Below the pieces are notes generated by a model. The model searched no databases. It was not told the origin of the DNA and saw only the letters and a program-made list of their open reading frames with translations. A stretch of 25,345 nt of DNA, from contig JBBPTG010000315.1 in the NCBI GenBank assembly GCA_038093975.1, positions 1-25,345 of the forward strand. Reading direction: 5' to 3'. Source of the stretch: Chalciporus piperatus (taxonomy: Eukaryota; Basidiomycota; Agaricomycetes; Boletales; Boletaceae). Position 1 is the first letter of the stretch. Each line of letters begins with the position of its first letter. This document shows, piece after piece, positions 8,858-19,300 of this stretch. The translations under genes were made by a program, and so were the position numbers.

Positions 8858-8863
8858 AGTTAC
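8858..8863. repeat. Target-site duplication AGTTAC, left copy
   Basis: AGTTAC at 8858-8863 is repeated at 18109-18114 directly outside the two terminal inverted repeats. Removing one copy and the 9,245 bases between restores the integrase reading frame. Confidence 0.95.
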
Positions 8864-8888
8864 TATGAGGGACCGTATTGGACAAAAT
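8864..8888 (+). repeat. Left terminal inverted repeat of the 9.2-kb transposon
   Basis: The 25 bases begin TATGAGGGACCG and end TGGACAAAAT. They match the reverse complement of 18084-18108 except at positions 2, 13 and 15. Confidence 0.95.
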
Positions 8889-8982
8889 TATTGACTTTGT
8901 TTTGCCAAGTTTTTGGACTTGAATTACACAGATTTTGACTTGGAGCACATGATTCCTTGATTTTGATCGTTCGTTCCTTGGC

Positions 8983-9005
8983 CTTGATGCTCCACCTTCC
9001 TAAAT
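8983..9005 (+). repeat. Subterminal inverted block, left copy
   Basis: A 23-bp block containing CTTGATGCTCCACCTTCC is identical to the reverse complement of 17945-17967. The sequences between block and terminus differ (119 against 141 bases), apart from scattered short matches. Conservation of an internal block amid diverged DNA suggests a transposase-binding site. Confidence 0.9.
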
Positions 9006-9359
9006 AGGGTAGTTTCTGTGTACGTAATCAAGTGCGCATCTGTAAGTTTTCAGCGAGGAAGATTATCCTACACGCTGTATCGATATACTAAATTATCCGC
9101 CCTTTCCTCCATTTCCGCTTCTCATCGACGCAGAGCTATTCAGCGCAGTCAACTGCCTCCACCTCTTCCCCCGACAATCGACGTCGCGGGATACAACCTT
9201 AGACACAACGTTCCCAACTGACGCGGCCCCAAGCCATCCTGGGGAATGATCAATCAATGGAGGGTTGCCTGTGCGACCACTCACGGGTGAGGAGAAGGCC
9301 AACAAGGTGCACAAGGGTCCGGCTGGATTCGGGTGATGGTGAATGGTGGAGTATAAACG

Positions 9360-9904
9360 TTACGACCCGGGGTGCCACCAAGACATACGCGGTTCTGGCG
9401 TATTCATGTAGGCTGTCATGACTGGCGGTAGGTGCCTATATGCATGGTATCCGTCGTTTCTCAATGCTATCTTTATAGATGATCCTGAGATGCTCTTGCG
9501 GGTCCTGCAGGGTGCCTTGGCATGTTGGTACACTTCTTCAACTCGCTGAAGTTTATCGTGATCGTGAAGGTGAGCGTAACAGTGTATATGTGTGCGCTTC
9601 ACTCAGCTCCATCTGTTCAGAGTATAGTATAAACTCGATGATACCTCCCGGAACCTGTGCAGCGATCCATGGGTTCTGATCGTAAAAGGCGAGGATTTGA
9701 GCACGCGTTGCACAGTCGGGGATGAGTCTGGTGAGGTGTCTTTCTTTGCTTGGGTTCATCTCCCCCCTCTCCCTCTTGGACGGGAGTCGTTGTGAAGGGG
9801 TCTTCAGCACCCGCGAAGAAGAGAGTCTCGCATATAGATCAGGCGGTGGGTGGAGGAAGAGGGTCGCAGGCGAGGTGTCTGCCTTGGCTGATGGACGAAG
9901 ACAT
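9360..9904 (-). other. Possible third, short gene of the transposon
   Basis: The - strand frame 9810-9553 contains a protein-like stretch (RHLTRLIPDCATRAQILAFYDQNPWIAAQVPGG...FILYSEQMELS is its span, in part), and 9602-9360 holds another (VEEVYQHAKAPCRTRKS). An ATG at 9904 begins MSSSISQGRHLACDPL after a TATA-like CATATATTC, but I could not join these with convincing splice sites. No family recognised. Bases 9006-9359 and 9905-10120 hold nothing I can support. Confidence 0.3.
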
Positions 9905-10120
9905 GTCGGTATATCGAGTAGCGGAGTGCGAGGGAAGAGAATATATGGACAGCATCGTGTTCACATTTGTATTAAGTACCTAGCATCAGTACAAGATTAC
10001 ATTCACTGCGAGTTTTTTTTGGTGTATCTGCAAAGTATACGTAGACAACTAGCGGGAGTGATGCAGCACACGTAGAATAGAGCAATTACAAGGTTATTAC
10101 TTCAGACCCAATGATTGGTG

Positions 10121-13100
10121 TCAAACGACATTGAAACAGTCAGCGAAGAGAAGGGAAACATGGACCCAGCAGTCGAAATTGGTGGCAAGCGCATCATCAT
10201 TTTCATATTGCTGGCTTAACCAGGCGACGAGCGAATGCGACAAAGGGACAACCATTCGGTAGGTGCACGTTTGGAATTGAAGTGGAAAGGTGTGTGGCTT
10301 CGATGAATATGAGCATCCATCATCAATTAAGGGGGTGACAGAACAACGTACCACCCAATCACTGGCAGCAGAGGCACCTTCAGGTCTGATGTGTTCGTGT
10401 CTAGACGGCAATGTCTTCGTGAACCGCACCTATAATCACCATAAGCTATGTTAGCTCTGATCCAAACAGAATTACGCACATGGATATCCTGAGTGCGGTC
10501 CGCCGGCAGCAAGAAGCTGCCTGATACCATTCGAAGGAATTGTTCACAGCGAAACGTCAAATTTGCCTGCGCTGCACGTATGTCATTAGCTGAAACGACA
10601 GCCATGATCTCCAGGTGGTTCGGGTGTCCTATCCCACGCAGGTATCGACTAAACTGAAGGATGAAAGATGTCACCAGTGTAGAATCAATTGACGAGTCGT
10701 TCGAGTCTTCTCTATCCTCTGGATATTCATACTTGATGCGGGAAATGAGCTCCTGCGGGGACTTGATTCGTTGATCATACATTTCGAGTATAAGGGTCTT
10801 CGCTGAAGGCTTCAAAGTCTGGAGGCATGCGGCGATAATGAGCACGATCAAAGACTGTGAGAATGAGACGACGTACGGATGCAAAGGAGGGCAAAACTTC
10901 AGCAATACAGGTATCGAAACCTTGCTTGAACAACTCAAGTTCTCTAGGCATGCTAACAATGTTCGTCGACAATGCAAATCGTGCCCCCTGCCCGAGGAGC
11001 GCACTGCCATAGAGTTGGCGTTTCAACTCCAGACGCTGGACTTCGGAGAGCTGAGTTGGGATTTGTGATGGCTACGAGAAACGAGTTCAGATAATGTAGC
11101 AATAACTGACACAACCGCCGAACTTACCTGAATAAGAAGATGTGTATTAAGTAGAGCTGCCAGGGTTCCAGTTGGCGAGGTATCGAGGATGAGTCCGTCA
11201 TTACCATCATCGACCACAGCAAGCATGTTGCCGATCTCTGGTGCGAGCAACTTGATGAGCTCTAGATCAAATAGAAGCTCGAAGGTGCCGATGGAATACA
11301 GGAGGAGAAATGGAGAGCATAGGTAGGGTGGCTGTCCAAGTGTATACATATGAAGGGCACACATAAAACCTTGCGCACGGATTCTGGATTCAACCCTGAC
11401 ATCCATGACATTGGAAAGGGACAAAATGGAGATTGATTTGAAACCATCGGTCGTCTCCGTCTAAATGGACAGATCGCCGACAGAGACCTCGATGACATGT
11501 GTGAGAACTGCTCTCGCAACACCATCACCGATGCCTTGTTTACTATAGTGATGCTAAGAATGCGATTACGAAATGTTTCTGAACAGACTTACGCTTCATA
11601 CAGACAGTTTTCCTTGAACAAGCAGGTGAGCGTAAACTCCGCGATGGCAGCATCGTTCATGAGATGACCAATCCGCGCTCCATCAGGAAGCGATGCTCGG
11701 TCCAATGGCTCATTAGAGCACCTCGAGAGGACAAATGAGGCCAGAAGTTCGGCTAGGTCACTGATGGTGCGTGCTTCGGCTTGCCAACGTGTACCGTGAC
11801 CAATATATGCCTCAACGAAACCTTTAACATAGCCCCTCCAATTGGCAATGGATGAGTGTGTGGGATGGTCAACCATAGTATTGGCTGGCTGGCGTGCACC
11901 AGACGCTGACCTTGTCACGCGAGTAGTACTGTCCGATGTGGCTGATAGTAACGGCATGCGAGCGGGGATTGACGATGACGACGCCTGGACATGGCTCGTT
12001 GAGCTGGAAGAGGCCGACTCGGCAGGGTGGCTATGATGTTCCCTAATGCTGGTGGCGTGAATGTGACTCGTCGAGCTGGAAGAAGCTGAATTGGCATGTC
12101 GGGCAAGACCTGCTGAGAGTGGCTCTTGCAGCTTCCGTTGCAAGATTGTCAGCAAAGACGTAAATGGTAGAGAGTATATCACATACCAGAAGGTCAACAT
12201 CATCGTCCAACATAGCGGCTAGATCGTCATGACATGTTGTGAAGCACGTTGGGGTTGGCCGTGTCTCGGAAGCAGGGAGAAAGCCCTGCATTGTGCGAGA
12301 CGCAAAACAGGTGTGAACTCCATGATGACCTTGAATTGGACCCTTCAACTTTCCGAACCGAGGCGCTGAAGAGAGCGTTAGCGTCACACACCGTCAAGAA
12401 CAGACTACGCACCCATATACAGTAGTTGAGGAGTTGGACTTTCCGGGTTGCTGATCACCTTTGCAGTTTGTTGAAGCAATGTAGACAGCCCAGCGGTCGT
12501 TATACTCCAGGTAGTTACTTTCGCAACCCTCAACGGGCTGGTAGTTGTGTCTCGAGTCAGTTTTCCCAGATCAAGGAGAATCCAGCTCGCTTTTTCGTAC
12601 ACCAACTCCTCTGTGGGTGAGCGTAAGGGCGATGCAGTGAAGTCGATGTCATGTTCATTGAAATGAGAAAGGATGTACTGGTTAAGAGGGTGGAGAAGCT
12701 GGTTGCCATGATCGCTGTCGCCGTATGGGTACGAGAAGTCAACGACAAGATGATGTCTTCTGAGCGTAGCGATAAGATCCGGGAGTTGATTACGGTCGAT
12801 CTTCATATTTTTTGGTAGTTCTTCATCCTCGTCGGTCTCCGAGGTCGAGGAAACCTTGGCTCATACGTCAGACACGAATGCAGCGATAAGTCATCAGACT
12901 TACCTGATAAGGAATGAAAATGATTCGACAGGTAAAAATGTCTGGTTGGGAAGGTCGACGACCCGAGGAGGCCTGGTTGGCAGGTAACTGAACCGGACGG
13001 GAGGTTCGACGAATTGCTCCAGTATTCACTGGACGAGAACTCGCAGGGTGGGCAGAGAATGGACTTGCTGAGGCTGGAATACCCATCGGGCGCTGGGTTG

Positions 13101-13739
13101 TAAACGAGTTTACCCGCCTCTCATTGGTGGTTGCTCCACCACGAACTTGAGTTGGAGGAACCCAGGATAATGTGGGCGACGTCATGGCAACTTGTGTGGT
13201 CGAGGCAGGGGCTGTCATGCTCGACGAAGAGGATCTATTAAACCATCAAATCATCATGGGTAAGTATCGTTCCTGGTAGACAGAAAAAGACTTGGAACCT
13301 ACCGAACTGGGGGCCCAGCGGGAGTTGCGATCTTTGCATGAGCTAGCCAGCCACGTCCACACACACAGCGAGACTGTGGCGTAAGTGCACTAGCTAAATC
13401 CTAACATTGTTCCCGAAGTCAGCAGGATTTGGTACACTTACAATCCACGTACTGCTTGTTGAAAGGCTATACAACCAGATATTGCACACCCTCCCTTTTG
13501 TGGAAGAGGTATGGGCAAGGGATTTGCGTCGATGTTGTTCACTGCATGGACGATATACTGATGTCCGCAGTGGCAAAGCGACACATCCCTATTGTCCTGC
13601 GCATTATGGATTAACGATCAGCAGTGGCCATCCACCATGTATTCGCACTTACACTAGAATCGAGGGCTTCAAAGTAACCACAGGGCTCCGGTCCCTCGCA
13701 ACGGCTACAAAGAAAACGGTTTTGAAGAAGCGTAGTCAT
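10121..13739 (-). pseudogene. HECT-like E3 ubiquitin ligase gene of the transposon, one nonsense codon
   Basis: Twelve exons on the - strand: 13739-13653, 13596-13453, 13373-13303, 13234-12904, 12854-12413, 12365-12187, 12131-11593, 11542-11128, 11071-10877, 10818-10480, 10429-10352, 10297-10121 (the last intron is optional because it is in frame). They sum to 2,997 bases, 998 codons plus stop. Residues 11-20 (CSRCEGPEPC), 37-39 (CHC), 66-71 (CAISGC) and 80-82 (CVC) make a Cys-rich, probably zinc-binding N-terminus. A Ser/Thr-rich linker follows near residues 420-500. From about residue 560 the order of blocks recalls HECT domains: GIGDGVARAVL, FLRMVSGSFLLP, then QTCTYRMVVP with C951 as candidate catalytic cysteine. 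A TAG at 11461-11463 (codon 625) sits where a Trp would suit, and would remove the whole C-lobe. HECT assignment is moderate, from motif order only. Confidence 0.65.
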
Positions 13740-15809
13740 TGGGGTGTCAGGATGAACGATAAGATGAACAAATGGTGAACAAATGGTGGGAGAGGTGGAA
13801 AGAATGGCGAGTCTGATTTTTTTCTGTCTCTCCATATATGTGGAGGGGGGTAGATCTTCGTTAGTCGCTAGTTTTCTGAATGTCACCCTACCTGGAAACC
13901 TTCACAGTATCACAGTGATGCCGCGCCGGCATGATTTGATGTGCTTCTGGTTTATAGCTCTCGGGTTTGTCGGTACATTGTATCTCGATCTGATTTCGAG
14001 CTGTTTGTCCTCACTATTTCATTCCCTTTGAGTATATAAACACTCACTGTTGTCTCCTTTATCCTCCTTGTCTCCTGTTTATGTTGTAGATAGGTTATAC
14101 GCTCACTAACATGGTCGGATCAGAGAAGCACGATAATGTGGAACAGATCTCACCAACAAAATGTCAAATCAGAATCTGGTAGCATGTGCTCGAGAAGCAA
14201 CCACTGACTTGAACATATTGGGGTGATATATGGAAACCGCCTGGCCAAATTCGATCGGCGGTACGGCTCGGTGCATCGAATCCGGCTCCCACTGCCCGGG
14301 CGGGAGGACTCCTGGACTTTCACTCTCAAGCTCTTAATACCGTATGAGAAATAGATGATAGGGGAAAGATGAAGGAGCAACTACTAGGGCGTTTCGTATC
14401 ATATTCAGAACCGTGAGGGAGACTGAGATAGAGTGGGAGAGCCACTCGGTGCCCCGAAACGTCCAAGTCTGCCAGTGCGTCATCAGTGCGTCATTGATTG
14501 TCTATATCGCGGGGAGCAGTGGAGGAACTCGACACCCTAATCAAGCACCGTTTGCGAAGGTAGGAAAGGGGGCACGATAGAGGAGAGAGTCGAGGCGGCC
14601 GCCGAGGCCCCAAAGACACCCGCTAGCGATTGCTTGCTGGAGGCTCGCTCTGTAGCGCCTGAGCAGAATGTACGATCTGACGAGCAGTATTGTCAATGAG
14701 TTGGGCGAGTTGCGGTGATGATCATTAATCCCAGCGCGCATATATGCAGTGAACAGACTTACCGAGTGCCTTGGCAATGCCTGTCACCAATCAACTGCAC
14801 CGCCTGCTGCACCCAAAGAATGAGTTCGGCGGATGAGCGCTAGCAGCCATACTCCAGTAACTCGAGGAAGCCTCCTCAACTCTACCATGTGATCTATCCT
14901 TCTTCTTTCATCTGCCTCCGTCGGCTCCAAGCCCCTCGTTGCGTGCAACGGTTGGAGATCGCGGTATCTCCTTGGGAGTATGCCATCGAGGGCCGACAAG
15001 TAGTTTACGGACTGATGTGGGGTGTCGTAGAACCTGTGAGGTAGGCTGAACTGGGTGTGATCGGGGGTGGGGTGAACCTTTTGGTGGATGGGGCTTTGTT
15101 GTTCTGACGGAGCAATGTATCCTCTGCACGGAATGTGGGTGAGACGAGGTAGAGTGACGGGGTGTATGTCGAGTACTGACACGACCTTATCGAACGAGTT
15201 GGACTCCTCTCCCTCTACGACTCCCGCTCACTACGAGGCCCAGAATCTCGCCGTCTTCTTGAAAAGGCCGCGAGCAATTGTGCACCTTCGTTCATCGCAG
15301 CTGATTTAGAGGAAAGAGCACCAGTGCTGTACCGCCAGACATATAAAATGTGGTGTTGGTTGTCACTGTGTCGTTACCGCCTGATGCACTCCATCTTGCA
15401 GGCGGAGAGCCAGGGGAGATAGTATAGTCGAATTCCTGTGTGGTGTGTGAGCGGGATGGAGAGGAGGACGGAAGGAACGGCAAACCCAAGCAGACCATTG
15501 GTACCCTTTCCCCCAATGACGAGGTGAGCCTGACAACTGTTGCGTGGATGTAGCCGCCAGGATTCCCGCCAATGTCAACGCTCGGGCCACTAGTCGGCCT
15601 GCACAGGGTCGCAATCGTCCTTGTGCAGCAGCCCATATCGGCTGTTGTTTTCTGTCGCAGTCATCTTGACCCGAGAGCCTTGAGCAAGTGGGATGGAAAA
15701 CATGCGGTTGTGGCTGTGTAACACTTGTCACGGTCATACGATTGATACAAGCAAAAAAAAAAAAAAGGTTTCCTATGGACTAGTAGTACTCAAAGATAAC
15801 GAAGTAATT
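13740..15809. other. Transposon interior without a supported gene
   Basis: Between the two main genes I find only weak coding hints. A + strand 47-codon frame (15166-15309, MSSTDTTLSNELDSSPSTTP) reads protein-like. Three - strand frames overlap at 15292-15737, one ending NTTFYMSGGTALVLFPLNQLR. A short - strand segment near 14770-14830 reads ELILWVQQAVQLIGDRHC up to a GTAAGT donor, but a stop precedes it. A TATA-like ATATATG (13833-13840) lies about 95 bases upstream of the HECT-like gene, and GTATATAAA (14032-14040) faces the other way. A run of 14 A lies at about 15753-15766. Confidence 0.4.
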
Positions 15810-17655
15810 CTATTCTGGCGTAAGTAAGTCCGAGTCACAGCAGAGCTGCAATGCATCAATCCAAAGCAGTCGTAAGTCATACATGGAATCAGAAAGGTAG
15901 TGAGGCAGGCTTCTGAGTTCCTGCTCTAGTCGCTCTACTAGTGCATCAGCGAGAGGGTGGCCAGTTTCAGGAACATGCACATCAGAGAGGTGCAGGGGAC
16001 CAATGATGAATGGATTGTCGCCCTCTTCATCCGTGCTGTTTGCTTGGTGATGGTGTTCACGGACGTCATCCTCATCAAATGCTTCCCAGTCGATTCCGTA
16101 CGCCTGAATATCATCAACGTCATCCGATTCCCCTCCAGACTGTGTAGTGTCAACTCCGCGCGAACCATTCTGAAGCATCCCAAAGAAAAACATATCTCGC
16201 GGACTGCGCTGACGCTCCCCATAGATGGCAATGGCATGATGGTTCCATGCCTCTGCCCATTCCATCGCATCGTGGTTGATCCGCTCTAGAAACAAGTGGT
16301 GGAGGAGCCATATATGAGCATCCAGGTTGACGTCCAAGCCGTCATACACCTCAAGACCCTGGAAAAAGTCCTTCCACTTAGCACCGAAACCTCTAGTGAC
16401 ATCACACCAGAGGCGCTCAATTCGGATGTTGTGAACGCTCCTGGATCCAAATAAGTGTGCTAGTAGGAACTATAGCATTCAAATAATGATGACAATACTT
16501 ACCGACCCCAGATGTAAGAACCACGATCCAGCCCTCTATTGTTTTCCATCCATTCAGCAATCTGGAGGTTTTCTGTGCCATGATCTCCACGAACACGACT
16601 GGGTGTTCCATGTTCTTTGATTGCATCAAGGAACAGCTCAAGAACTGTTGCTGCCCTATTGTTTCCGCTGACACGGATGCCGCTGACAAAACGCGAGAAC
16701 CCGTCAATGAAAGCATGGATGACCAAACGCCATCTTATCAGTCCTGTCAAGAGCGAATGATATTATTATGAAGGTGAGTATCCAAGTCACCACTGAATGT
16801 TGAACTACAAACCATGTTGTCCGTCGTGATGCCAGAGAGAGTTCGGGCCTGGAACAGAATAAACCCGCCGCTGAATACGCCGGGATCCAAATATATTGAT
16901 AGGAGCACCGTGTACCCGAGTGTATGACTCCAGCATGCGGCCGCGAGTGACTCTGTGGCCAAGGTATCGAAAATGCCCTTGAATCATCCGACGACCGAAA
17001 AATGGGAAGTGTTGGAGGATTTGTTGCATGATCTTGTCGAGCTCGTCGTCGGACAGGTCGGATGTGGGTGCAGTTGAGGAGGCATAGAAACGCGTCAATG
17101 TTCCATCCTCGCCCTTGTAGTCAACATAAACAGGTGCTCCCGGTTCCACGAAGCCATATTCCAGGGCACGGCGGCGAACTGTTCGAGCAGACACGCCGAA
17201 AATGCCCGCAAGGTGAGTGGGCCCTCGAAGTTCGATTGCCGGCGCAAGAATGGACGGGTCGATTTCAATGCGAGGACGTCCAGCCCTTCCTGTCACTACA
17301 CGATGGGTTGTTTCAAGTGGCGGGGCATCGGGAGGATCTAACGACAAGGTAGTTGCATCATCGAGATGCTGGATCATATTGTGCAGGTTTGATTCAATTG
17401 TATCGCATTCCTCGTGCGTGAATACATGTGTGTGCTAGTAAGCAGTATGCTGGTGAAAAAGGAATTACAACCATTCGAGATGATAGCCTTTACCTGAGAA
17501 ACAAGCGATAAGAGGCGTTGGCAATGGTTTCGCTCATTCTGAAGCCTCGCTCCGTCTCCCAACTGAGTGCGAAGCGCGAGTGAAACACGACGGCCTAGTT
17601 CTGCTGCTGCAGTTCTGATCGTGTATAGTGGGGCTGGGATCTCCTGTTCGTTCAT
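15810..17655 (-). CDS. DDE integrase/transposase of the 9.2-kb transposon
   Basis: Exons 17655-17494, 17434-16813, 16743-16503 and 16440-15810 join in phase to 551 residues without a stop. The introns (59, 69 and 62 bases) have donors GTAAAG, GTTTGT and GTAAGT. Residues 95-150 contain an AT-hook-like GRAGRPR and a helix-turn-helix-like segment (LAGIFGVSARTVRRRALEYG). Residues 185-230 are a second DNA-binding-like region (FPFFGRRMIQGHFRYLGHRV). The catalytic core is of the retroviral-integrase (rve-like) type: D258 in WHHDGQH, D315 in VRGDHGTEN and E350 in NIRIERLW, with 34 residues between the last two. The family is known from fungi and fish as multi-copy integrase-core proteins. The C-terminus (about 440-500) is acidic and probably disordered. 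It presumably cuts and joins the TIRs at 8864 and 18108. The start MNEQEIPAP was chosen as the ATG in frame with the first good donor. Confidence 0.9.
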
Positions 17656-18083
17656 GAGGTGGAAAAAGCAAATGTATGATGTGATCTGTACAGAAAACGG
17701 TACAAGTATGGGTCTACAAAGTTCGGATCGGGCTTGGTGGGCCAAAAGAGCACACCAAGTCCCTACAAGTACTCTTCATTCACTTGCAGTCCACCTCGAT
17801 TTCCCGATCGTGATGGCTGAGCGCCGAGGGTTGTCCATCATCGCAGCCGGGGAATGTTACGGTTGATCAATCGATCATGAATCAAGTTATCTGTTCAGCT
17901 GTAGACTGTAGTGATCGAGTGAGGTCACCTGACTAATCAAACCAATTTAGGAAGGTGGAGCATCAAGTCGAATGCGCAAAATTCGAAGTCCAGGTTGCTG
18001 ATTCCTGGTTAAGGAAGTGAGGTGTCAAAAGCAAAGGTATTTCGGATCAAACGCAAGATATCCTGGCAAAATTTGCTTGCCCG
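17656..18083. other. Right subterminal region of the transposon
   Basis: This stretch lies between the integrase start and the right TIR. It has no supported gene and contains the 23-bp inverted block at 17945-17967. It probably holds the integrase promoter; I see no clear TATA box. Confidence 0.5.
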
Positions 18084-18108
18084 ATTTTGTCCAGTGCGGT
18101 CCCTCAAA
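18084..18108 (-). repeat. Right terminal inverted repeat of the 9.2-kb transposon
   Basis: Read inward on the - strand it begins TTTGAGGGACCG and ends TGGACAAAAT, matching the left end at 22 of 25 positions. The right TSD copy (18109-18114) follows. Confidence 0.95.
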
Positions 18109-18114
18109 AGTTAC
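18109..18114. repeat. Target-site duplication AGTTAC, right copy
   Basis: Matches 8858-8863 exactly and lies just outside the right TIR. Confidence 0.95.
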
Positions 18115-19300
18115 GCACTAAAACTAGACTTCCAGGACGGAAATCGTAGTCCTTGATACGGTTCTTGAATGAAGCTTCAAACTGCTTGATGGATTCGAAG
18201 CGGGCCTTCAGGACTCGTTCCCGGATATTATCCAGGTCCTCCTGCCGCTTCTGGAATTGCCTAGCACGCCAGGCAATCAACTCTGTAGTTGGTAAAGGGT
18301 CAGCACTCGGGAGCGGAACAAGGAATGTGGCTTCGGAAAGATCAAAAGGGAAGAGTGGCTCCACACCATGAACCATGAAATAAGGAGAGAGACCAGTGGA
18401 CTTAATGATGGTAACGCGTTCCGCCCAAAAGACAGAGTGAACTGCGCGAGGCCAGTGAGACTCGTCCCCCAGGGTACTTTTGATGATGGCCTCCCGGACA
18501 TCGTAATGACGCCGTTCTACAATCCCGTTTGCACGGGAGTTGTAAGGAGATATCCGGATATGCGTGATCAAGTAACGCTTCCGGAGCAATTCTAGAGCTT
18601 GAACGAAAGGTGGACCATTGTCAGTAACAATCTCCGCGACGGGACCCCACCGACACAAGATATCTTCGAAGATAAAAGAAGCCAACGCGGCAGTATTCTC
18701 GGAACGAAGCATGCGCCATTCCGGCCAGGAAGACAGGGCGCAGCGAGCTTGGACGATATAGCGGTATCCGCTCGCCTTCGGCATCAGCATGGTATCGATG
18801 TGGACCTTCATGAAGAGTCCACCGACTACCGGAACCGTTGGTGGTATGTTGACCTTCCGGGTCAGCCGTACTTGGCATTGGTGACAAGTCTTGACGAACC
18901 ACTTGACATCGTCCACCAGCATGGGCCACCAGAAGCGCAGGAGTAAACGAGTCCGGACTGTGAAGACACCCTTGTGCCCGAGGTCATCGTGGGCCTCCTT
19001 AATCAATCCGAACCGTCTAGGCTCCGGAACGACAAGCTGATGACGACCATGAGGCTCGCGACGCCAAAGCGATCCGTTGAGTAAGAAAAAACGGGTAGCT
19101 GAGTTGACGAAAGATTTGTAGTCGGAATCCGACGCCCCGTCCGGCTGTTCCTGGGTATCCAGGAAACGTCAAATCTGATCTATCCGGACCTCCCGGGCTT
19201 TGGCCTTTGCGGACCGCGGGATCTCTGGGTCCACATCGTCTGAAACGGAGTCAGAAGTCTGAAGGAGGGTGAAATACACTTGGTTATGGACCAAGGGTGA
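18115..19300 (-). pseudogene. Gypsy integrase, main part
   Basis: After a linker (EIPRSAKAKAREVRIDQI) the frame has a TGA at 19169-19171 and then runs open through RFLDTQEQPDG, NSATRFFLLNGSLWRRE, the zinc-binding HHCC region (H-DLGHKG...CHQC), and the rve core with D in KVHIDTML, D in IVTDNGPPF and E in NGIVERRHY. It stops abruptly after SLVLVRN where the 9.2-kb transposon begins. The upstream end joins the RNase H part across the solo LTR in the same frame (RQP|SPLVHN). The TGA replaces what is probably a CGA Arg codon, a C-to-T change. The integrase would have acted in cDNA insertion. Confidence 0.92.

Follow-up and report, generated by a model that had tools for sequence, protein, structure and literature searches.

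What separates the two parts of a single gypsy integrase frame in the mushroom Chalciporus piperatus? The frame lies in a stretch of 25,345 nucleotides (contig JBBPTG010000315.1 of assembly GCA_038093975.1, hereafter C315), which was analysed at its full length and is called the window below. The original prediction for this DNA was that a complete 9,245-bp DNA transposon had split the integrase, with 25-bp terminal inverted repeats (TIRs) and a 6-bp target site duplication (TSD). The analysis described here supports this view. In all likelihood, the inserted DNA is a complete IS3EU-like (IS3EU/GingerRoot-type) cut-and-paste transposon in a young gypsy copy, and this transposon carries a conserved partner gene and captured fragments of other loci.

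Ends and structure of the element

The element occupies positions 8864-18108 of C315 (9,245 bp, in a genome of 35.5 Mb), exactly as predicted. Its 25-bp TIRs, i.e., TATGAGGGACCGTATTGGACAAAAT from 8864 and TTTGAGGGACCGCACTGGACAAAAT read inward from 18108, are identical at 22 of 25 positions, and the hexamer AGTTAC abuts both ends, at 8858-8863 and 18109-18114. With up to three mismatches, the TIR pattern occurs at two places in the window, which are the two ends of the element, compared to a mean and a maximum of 0 matches when the window was shuffled 100 times. A scan of the whole genome with up to two mismatches gave 17 matches, and a reversed control pattern gave 0. Further inward, a 38-nt subterminal inverted repeat is present (8978-9015 and 17935-17972, 84% identity). 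The 11-mer TGCTCCACCTT is found inverted near both ends in all four complete copies of the family, at 125 and 147 bp from the ends in the window copy and at 116 and 139 bp in the other three. This subterminal repeat is a candidate binding site for the transposase. The features of the element and its target are the following:

8858-8863, no strand: left TSD AGTTAC (end analysis, empty sites)
8864-8888, plus: left TIR with TAT end (matching end in the copies on C24, C25 and C60)
8978-9015, plus: left subterminal inverted repeat containing TGCTCCACCTT (84% with 17935-17972)
9556-9960, minus: possible small third open reading frame (ORF) of uncertain coding status, with partial similarity to C74, C24 and C25
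10121-13739, minus: accessory (partner) gene with 13 predicted exons (homologues, substitution rates)
14344-14595, minus: fragment matching C29:103418-103709 (genome search, alignment)
14626-14688, minus: fragment matching C79:14812-14874, between two C29 pieces (genome search, alignment)
14725-14792, minus: second C29 fragment, matching C29:103855-103924 (genome search, alignment)
14862-15267, minus: two joined C22 fragments (C22 locus: gene with an NLI-interacting-factor-like phosphatase domain)
15306-15550, minus: C3 fragments (kelch-like by eye; Pfam sub-threshold)
15810-17655, minus: transposase gene, four exons, 551 amino acids (Pfam rva_4; D258, D315 and E350 assigned by motif)
17935-17972, minus: right subterminal inverted repeat (84% with 8978-9015)
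18084-18108, minus: right TIR with TTT end (end analysis)
18109-18114, no strand: right TSD AGTTAC (end analysis, empty sites)
18115-19168, minus: target of the insertion, outside the element; the larger portion of the split gypsy integrase frame (remainder left of 8858)

Short copies, empty sites and the age of the insertion

In the genome searches, in which only the best candidates were scored, three complete short copies of the family were identified: two of 1,673 bp, on C25 (TSD GTGCCA) and C24 (TSD CATATC), and one of 937 bp on C60 (TSD CTGTTG). A search for copies and an alignment of their ends had been proposed with the original prediction, and the ends of all three copies indeed correspond to 8864 and 18108. 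Together with the window copy, four of four complete copies are flanked by perfect, mutually different 6-bp duplications, and all four start with TAT on the left and TTT on the right. The copies on C24 and C25 are identical at 1667 of 1673 positions while their flanks differ, which argues for recent activity of the family. Compared to the window copy, the short copies show about 90-92% (C24 and C25; about 90% over the left 1 kb) or 86% (C60) identity on the left and only 77-79% at the right end. The window copy is therefore regarded as a relative of their source and not as their direct parent. The segment 9480-10130, which spans the possible third ORF, has matches outside the window on C25, C24, C74 and C60 only. 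On C74 (96300-98183), the left-end region of the element is present in a rearranged, partly inverted state, and no terminal repeat was matched there.

The right flank of the element, which is part of the gypsy integrase, is matched at 18 other places in the genome (19 including the window), at 13 of them with 97-100% identity. All five gypsy copies examined among these 18 places cross the insertion point without the element, with 1-2 mismatches per 174-180 aligned bases relative to the joined flanks of the window. The target sequence in these empty sites is AGTTAC in two and AATTAC in three cases. The predicted splitting of the integrase is thereby confirmed; had the region belonged to ordinary genes, related loci should have contained it uninterrupted, and these five lack it entirely. 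As gypsy copies are empty at the insertion point, the insertion is younger than its host copy of a young retrotransposon. The window also contains a long open frame at 399-2312 that resembles a Copia-type polyprotein by eye; the window as a whole is a nest of transposable elements.

The transposase

The transposase gene is encoded on the minus strand by four exons (17655-17494, 17434-16813, 16743-16503 and 16440-15810). The three introns between them (59, 69 and 62 bp) are all of the GT-AG type. The encoded protein of 551 amino acids contains no stops, in agreement with the unbroken DDE integrase that was predicted. In Pfam, residues 245-435 match rva_4 (PF24764, E 9e-65), and rve is matched as well (E 2e-9). 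The catalytic residues D258, D315 and E350 were assigned by motif, with 34 residues separating D315 and E350. The NCBIfam families IS481 (E 5e-10) and IS3 (E 6e-6) are matched weakly, both far below their curated cut-offs. An HHCC pattern was searched for in the protein and is absent; by eye, the N-terminal part is helix-turn-helix-like. No relatives of solved structure were found by sequence at E <= 1.

Of the 7,995 candidates scored in a protein search, 518 matched at E <= 1e-3; the closest of those found is a protein from Blastosporella zonata with 57% identity. Among the 120 matches listed (of 518), homologues are named only as hypothetical or integrase-domain proteins, and the rows with a species name belong to genera of Agaricomycetes. 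Judged from these proteins, the rva_4 transposase family is common in mushroom genomes. The original prediction had gone on to suggest a type of element undescribed in mushrooms. Its claim to novelty was too high, since the superfamily is already known there: next to the 518 similar proteins, IS3EU is listed in the repeat data for Ganoderma leucocontextum (PMC8955403) and Phlebopus portentosus (PMC12411881). What is added here is the conserved partner gene and the captured fragments.

In the same genome, relatives of the transposase are present on C10 (74-89% identity by piece, frameshifted) and C218 (53-57%), and more distant ones on C206, C142 and C11.

A conserved partner gene

The original prediction counted several accessory genes. 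One of them is well supported, i.e., the gene at 10121-13739; the remainder comes down to the possible small ORF at 9556-9960, which matched no Pfam family, and to a patchwork of fragments. The partner gene lies on the minus strand and is predicted to encode about 988 amino acids in 13 exons (13739-13653, 13596-13453, 13400-13303, 13234-12904, 12854-12413, 12365-12187, 12131-11593, 11553-11529, 11460-11128, 11071-10877, 10818-10480, 10429-10352 and 10297-10121). The least certain parts of this gene model are the small exon 11553-11529 and the intron 10351-10298, which preserves the frame. The protein matches no Pfam family, and its N-terminal part is rich in Cys/His motifs. With residues 612-985 as query, one of 7,858 candidates matched at E <= 10, namely P0121, a hypothetical protein of 984 amino acids from Suillus occidentalis (36% identity over the searched region, E 8e-50). 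In a direct alignment, both proteins are 32% identical over 496 columns, reaching the end (QFQTCTYR), and an N-terminal likeness is seen by eye. A query with residues 300-970 gave no match at E <= 1e-3 among 7,992 candidates, probably owing to low-complexity words that crowded the list of candidates. The C-terminal 373 residues have no relatives of solved structure at E <= 10.

The partner gene adjoins the transposase gene in three lineages of elements in this genome, each with its own arrangement. In the window, it lies downstream of the transposase gene on the same strand; on C218, it lies upstream on the same strand; and on C10, both genes are convergent, with the N-terminal part of the partner located on C202. 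In the examined pieces of C206, C142, C11 and C74, no partner gene was seen. The partner gene of C10/C202 enters repetitive low-complexity sequence near a Ser/Thr-rich exon (C202:11700-12300), and the end of contig C10 falls near the same point of the gene.

Between the window and C10, the rate of nonsynonymous substitution (dN) is well under the synonymous rate (dS) for both genes: dN 0.22 and dS 3.6 (saturated) over 541 codons of the transposase, and dN 0.36 and dS 2.0 over 775 codons of the partner. By these values, both genes have been kept by purifying selection. As it has been retained in three lineages despite changes in order and orientation, the partner probably aids transposition or shields the element.

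An identity of the partner as a HECT E3 ligase was considered and rejected. There is no Pfam HECT match; a HECT search of the genome gave 18 matches, none of which lies on C315; and in hhalign, the alignment of the partner to host HECT C-lobes did not surpass the best one among five column shuffles. The motifs FLxxVSGSxxLP and LPxxFQTC of the partner resemble HECT by eye only, and every profile test made failed. No connection between IS3EU and HECT was found in the open-access literature searched.

Related elements in the same genome

The element on C218 (20390-27889, 7,500 bp) is flanked by ATAGCG on both sides and carries the transposase together with the partner gene. Its ends, TATAGTGGTCCCCGCTGGACAAAAT and TATGAGGGGCCGGACTGGACAATAA, both begin with TAT and are alike at only 16 of 25 positions. 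The second of these ends resembles ends on C31, C38, C39, C90 and C399. A further element is located on C206 (26898-32723, 5,826 bp, flank GTATAG). The C10 element stops at the end of its contig, but the hexamer on its outer side, TCTACG, also flanks the matching opposite end, which is located on C202. Given this shared flank and the partner gene that is split between both contigs, C10 and C202 probably hold one element. TA is found at both ends of the elements on C218 and C206, and also of C10/C202 if this is one element. Of the elements examined here, only those of the window family have a TTT right end.

Several other arrangements of ends were observed. The C218 element is bracketed by two inverted arms (15904-17439 and 27964-29500), which measure 1.5 kb or more and are 98.5% identical; the right one begins about 75 bp past the element. 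On C399 (16330-16443), a left end of the TATGAGGGGCCGG type directly adjoins a second copy of itself that is inverted and truncated. Either the element apparently inserted into itself, or the arrangement is an artefact at the end of the contig. Two GAGGGGCC-type ends, C31:119840-119980 and C38:780-900, have common flanking DNA, and thus represent two alleles, a duplicated stretch or a nested repeat. Single element ends are present at C97:9703-9724 and C263:18051-18072, one of the C10 type and one of the window type with two mismatches.

A patchwork of fragments matching other loci

Between the two genes of the window element, the region 14.34-15.55 kb consists of fragments that match four other loci, on C3, C22, C29 and C79. 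Among the best candidates scored in a genome search with 13760-15780, there were, besides the region itself, six pieces on these four contigs only. The C22 locus contains a 306-amino acid frame with an NLI-interacting-factor-like phosphatase domain above the Pfam cut-off. By eye, the C3 locus is kelch-like, and the C29 and C79 loci are membrane-protein-like. If the longest sensible frame of each locus is taken as coding, all pieces share one orientation and read in sense on the minus strand, as do the genes of the element itself.

The C3 piece is 93% identical to its locus (227 of 245 aligned bases), with 101 bases missing from the element and none extra, and the first C22 piece 86% (273 of 316), with 87 missing and none extra. 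The 571 bases of C22 that lie between its two joined pieces are absent from the element. Both C29 pieces together are 85% identical (340 of 401; 106 missing, 48 extra), and the C79 piece 91% (90 of 99; 70 missing, 3 extra); as the C79 piece is enclosed by those of C29, the alignments of C29 and C79 overlap there. The alignment scores of the fragments are 116-396, compared to maxima of 29-46 in 20 shuffles each.

In the C10 element, only about 300 bp separate the matches to the two genes. The patchwork is thus a gain in the window lineage, which is the simpler reading, or a loss in C10. Pack-TYPE elements and Pack-MULEs are DNA transposons that carry fragments of several genes. The window element resembles them in this respect, as it holds fragments of unlinked host loci between its TIRs, with Pfam supporting the gene nature of the C22 locus only; it differs in that the carrier is IS3EU-like and keeps its own transposase. 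The patchwork therefore looks like Pack-type capture. A search limited to one open-access library gave no report of an IS3EU-type element that had captured host fragments.

Classification and rival explanations

Complete IS3EU families usually have 6-bp duplications and always TA..TA ends (PMC10045372). The assignment to IS3EU, which the original prediction offered as a possibility, agrees with the 6-bp TSD (four of four complete copies and five of five empty sites, as well as C218 and C206), with the left TA end and with an IS3/IS481-like DDE transposase without HHCC. The right end is TTT in all four copies, and as this does not fit the TA..TA feature, the element is classed as an IS3EU-like variant. 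Extra genes are known from other fungal members: TET+ IS3EU of rusts and truffle have genes for a TET/JBP dioxygenase and an alpha-kinase, and in those of rusts, the TET/JBP gene lies between the transposase and alpha-kinase genes, the ends are TAYGG..CCRTA and the TIRs exceed 30 bp (PMC12730594), compared to 25 bp in the window element. By Pfam, the window partner is not a TET/JBP or alpha-kinase protein (no such match at E <= 1 in the transposase, the partner or the ten ORFs scanned), and the patchwork is a further difference. Styx from Zymoseptoria tritici is IS3EU-like, with four coding sequences, recent activity and a 6-bp duplication as used in its authors' searches, but it has 36-bp TIRs and an ascomycete host (PMC10853768, PMC9970103). 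GingerRoot from a clubmoss shares the 6-bp duplication and a related transposase; its ends are mostly TA..TA, occasionally TG..CA, in contrast to the TTT right end of the window element (PMC10045372).

An origin in the world of long terminal repeat retrotransposons, as a Ginger-type or gypsy-derived element, is suggested by the match of the integrase to rve and by its location in a gypsy integrase. We hold it to be very improbable, as the transposase is devoid of the HHCC pattern of Ginger1, the duplications are 6 bp compared to 4-5 bp in Ginger1 and Ginger2 (PMC10045372), and the NCBIfam matches, although weak, are to IS481 and IS3. That the assembly joined two unrelated stretches is hardly credible: the genome is fragmented (484 contigs) and gypsy is repetitive, but the perfect duplication, the terminal repeats and the same ends in three short copies elsewhere argue against it. 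A somewhat more serious, yet still unlikely alternative is that the window copy is a non-autonomous passenger moved by a transposase of the C218 or C10 type. The window element shares its terminal motif CTGGACAAAAT with ends on C218 and C10, and only one copy of the family with the gene pair was found; on the other hand, its own transposase frame is intact and under purifying selection, and the C10 transposase is frameshifted. As for the patchwork, it is improbable that these are ancient repeats common to the four loci and the element, without any capture. This would suit the single genome pass with five scored candidates and the fact that one of the four loci exceeds the Pfam cut-off, but each piece matched one other locus only, the C22 locus reads through as a phosphatase-domain frame, and relative to C3 and C22 the element only lacks bases.

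Several points weigh against a complete, captured-fragment-bearing IS3EU-like transposon as well. The exon boundaries are predictions, and the partner-gene exon query 12408-12860 matched C10 and not C218, which was matched by another exon query. The window copy is the sole family member found with both genes and did not directly give rise to the short copies; recent activity was seen for the copies on C24 and C25. One of the four matched loci, C22, has a Pfam match above the cut-off, and the direction of transfer is inferred. The IS3EU-like reading nevertheless remains preferred, and the element, which the original prediction called autonomous or recently autonomous, appears to be potentially autonomous and recently inserted.

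A proposed mechanism and its meaning

In the proposed mechanism, the DDE transposase would bind both ends, probably via the TIR and the subterminal TGCTCCACCTT at about 115-150 bp, and join them to target strands staggered by 6 bp. It would also mobilize the short copies, which may have arisen by internal deletion, with the partner protein helping transposition or protecting the element. Fragments of other loci were probably captured when gaps or breaks within the element were repaired. More tentatively, and with less than even confidence, we propose that a two-gene core of rva_4 transposase and conserved partner defines a mushroom lineage of the IS3EU type, the autonomous members of which gather sense fragments of host genes as Pack elements. 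Within such a lineage, the partner is perhaps a highly diverged ubiquitin-ligase-like protein.

Since one case now has exact ends, a TSD, empty sites, non-autonomous partners and a partner gene, mushroom proteins of the rva_4 type can be annotated as transposases. Moreover, with the patchwork, IS3EU-type elements would join the known carriers of gene fragments. The gathering of fragments becomes a testable question in a 35-Mb genome, for which this element is a good test case of gene pick-up.
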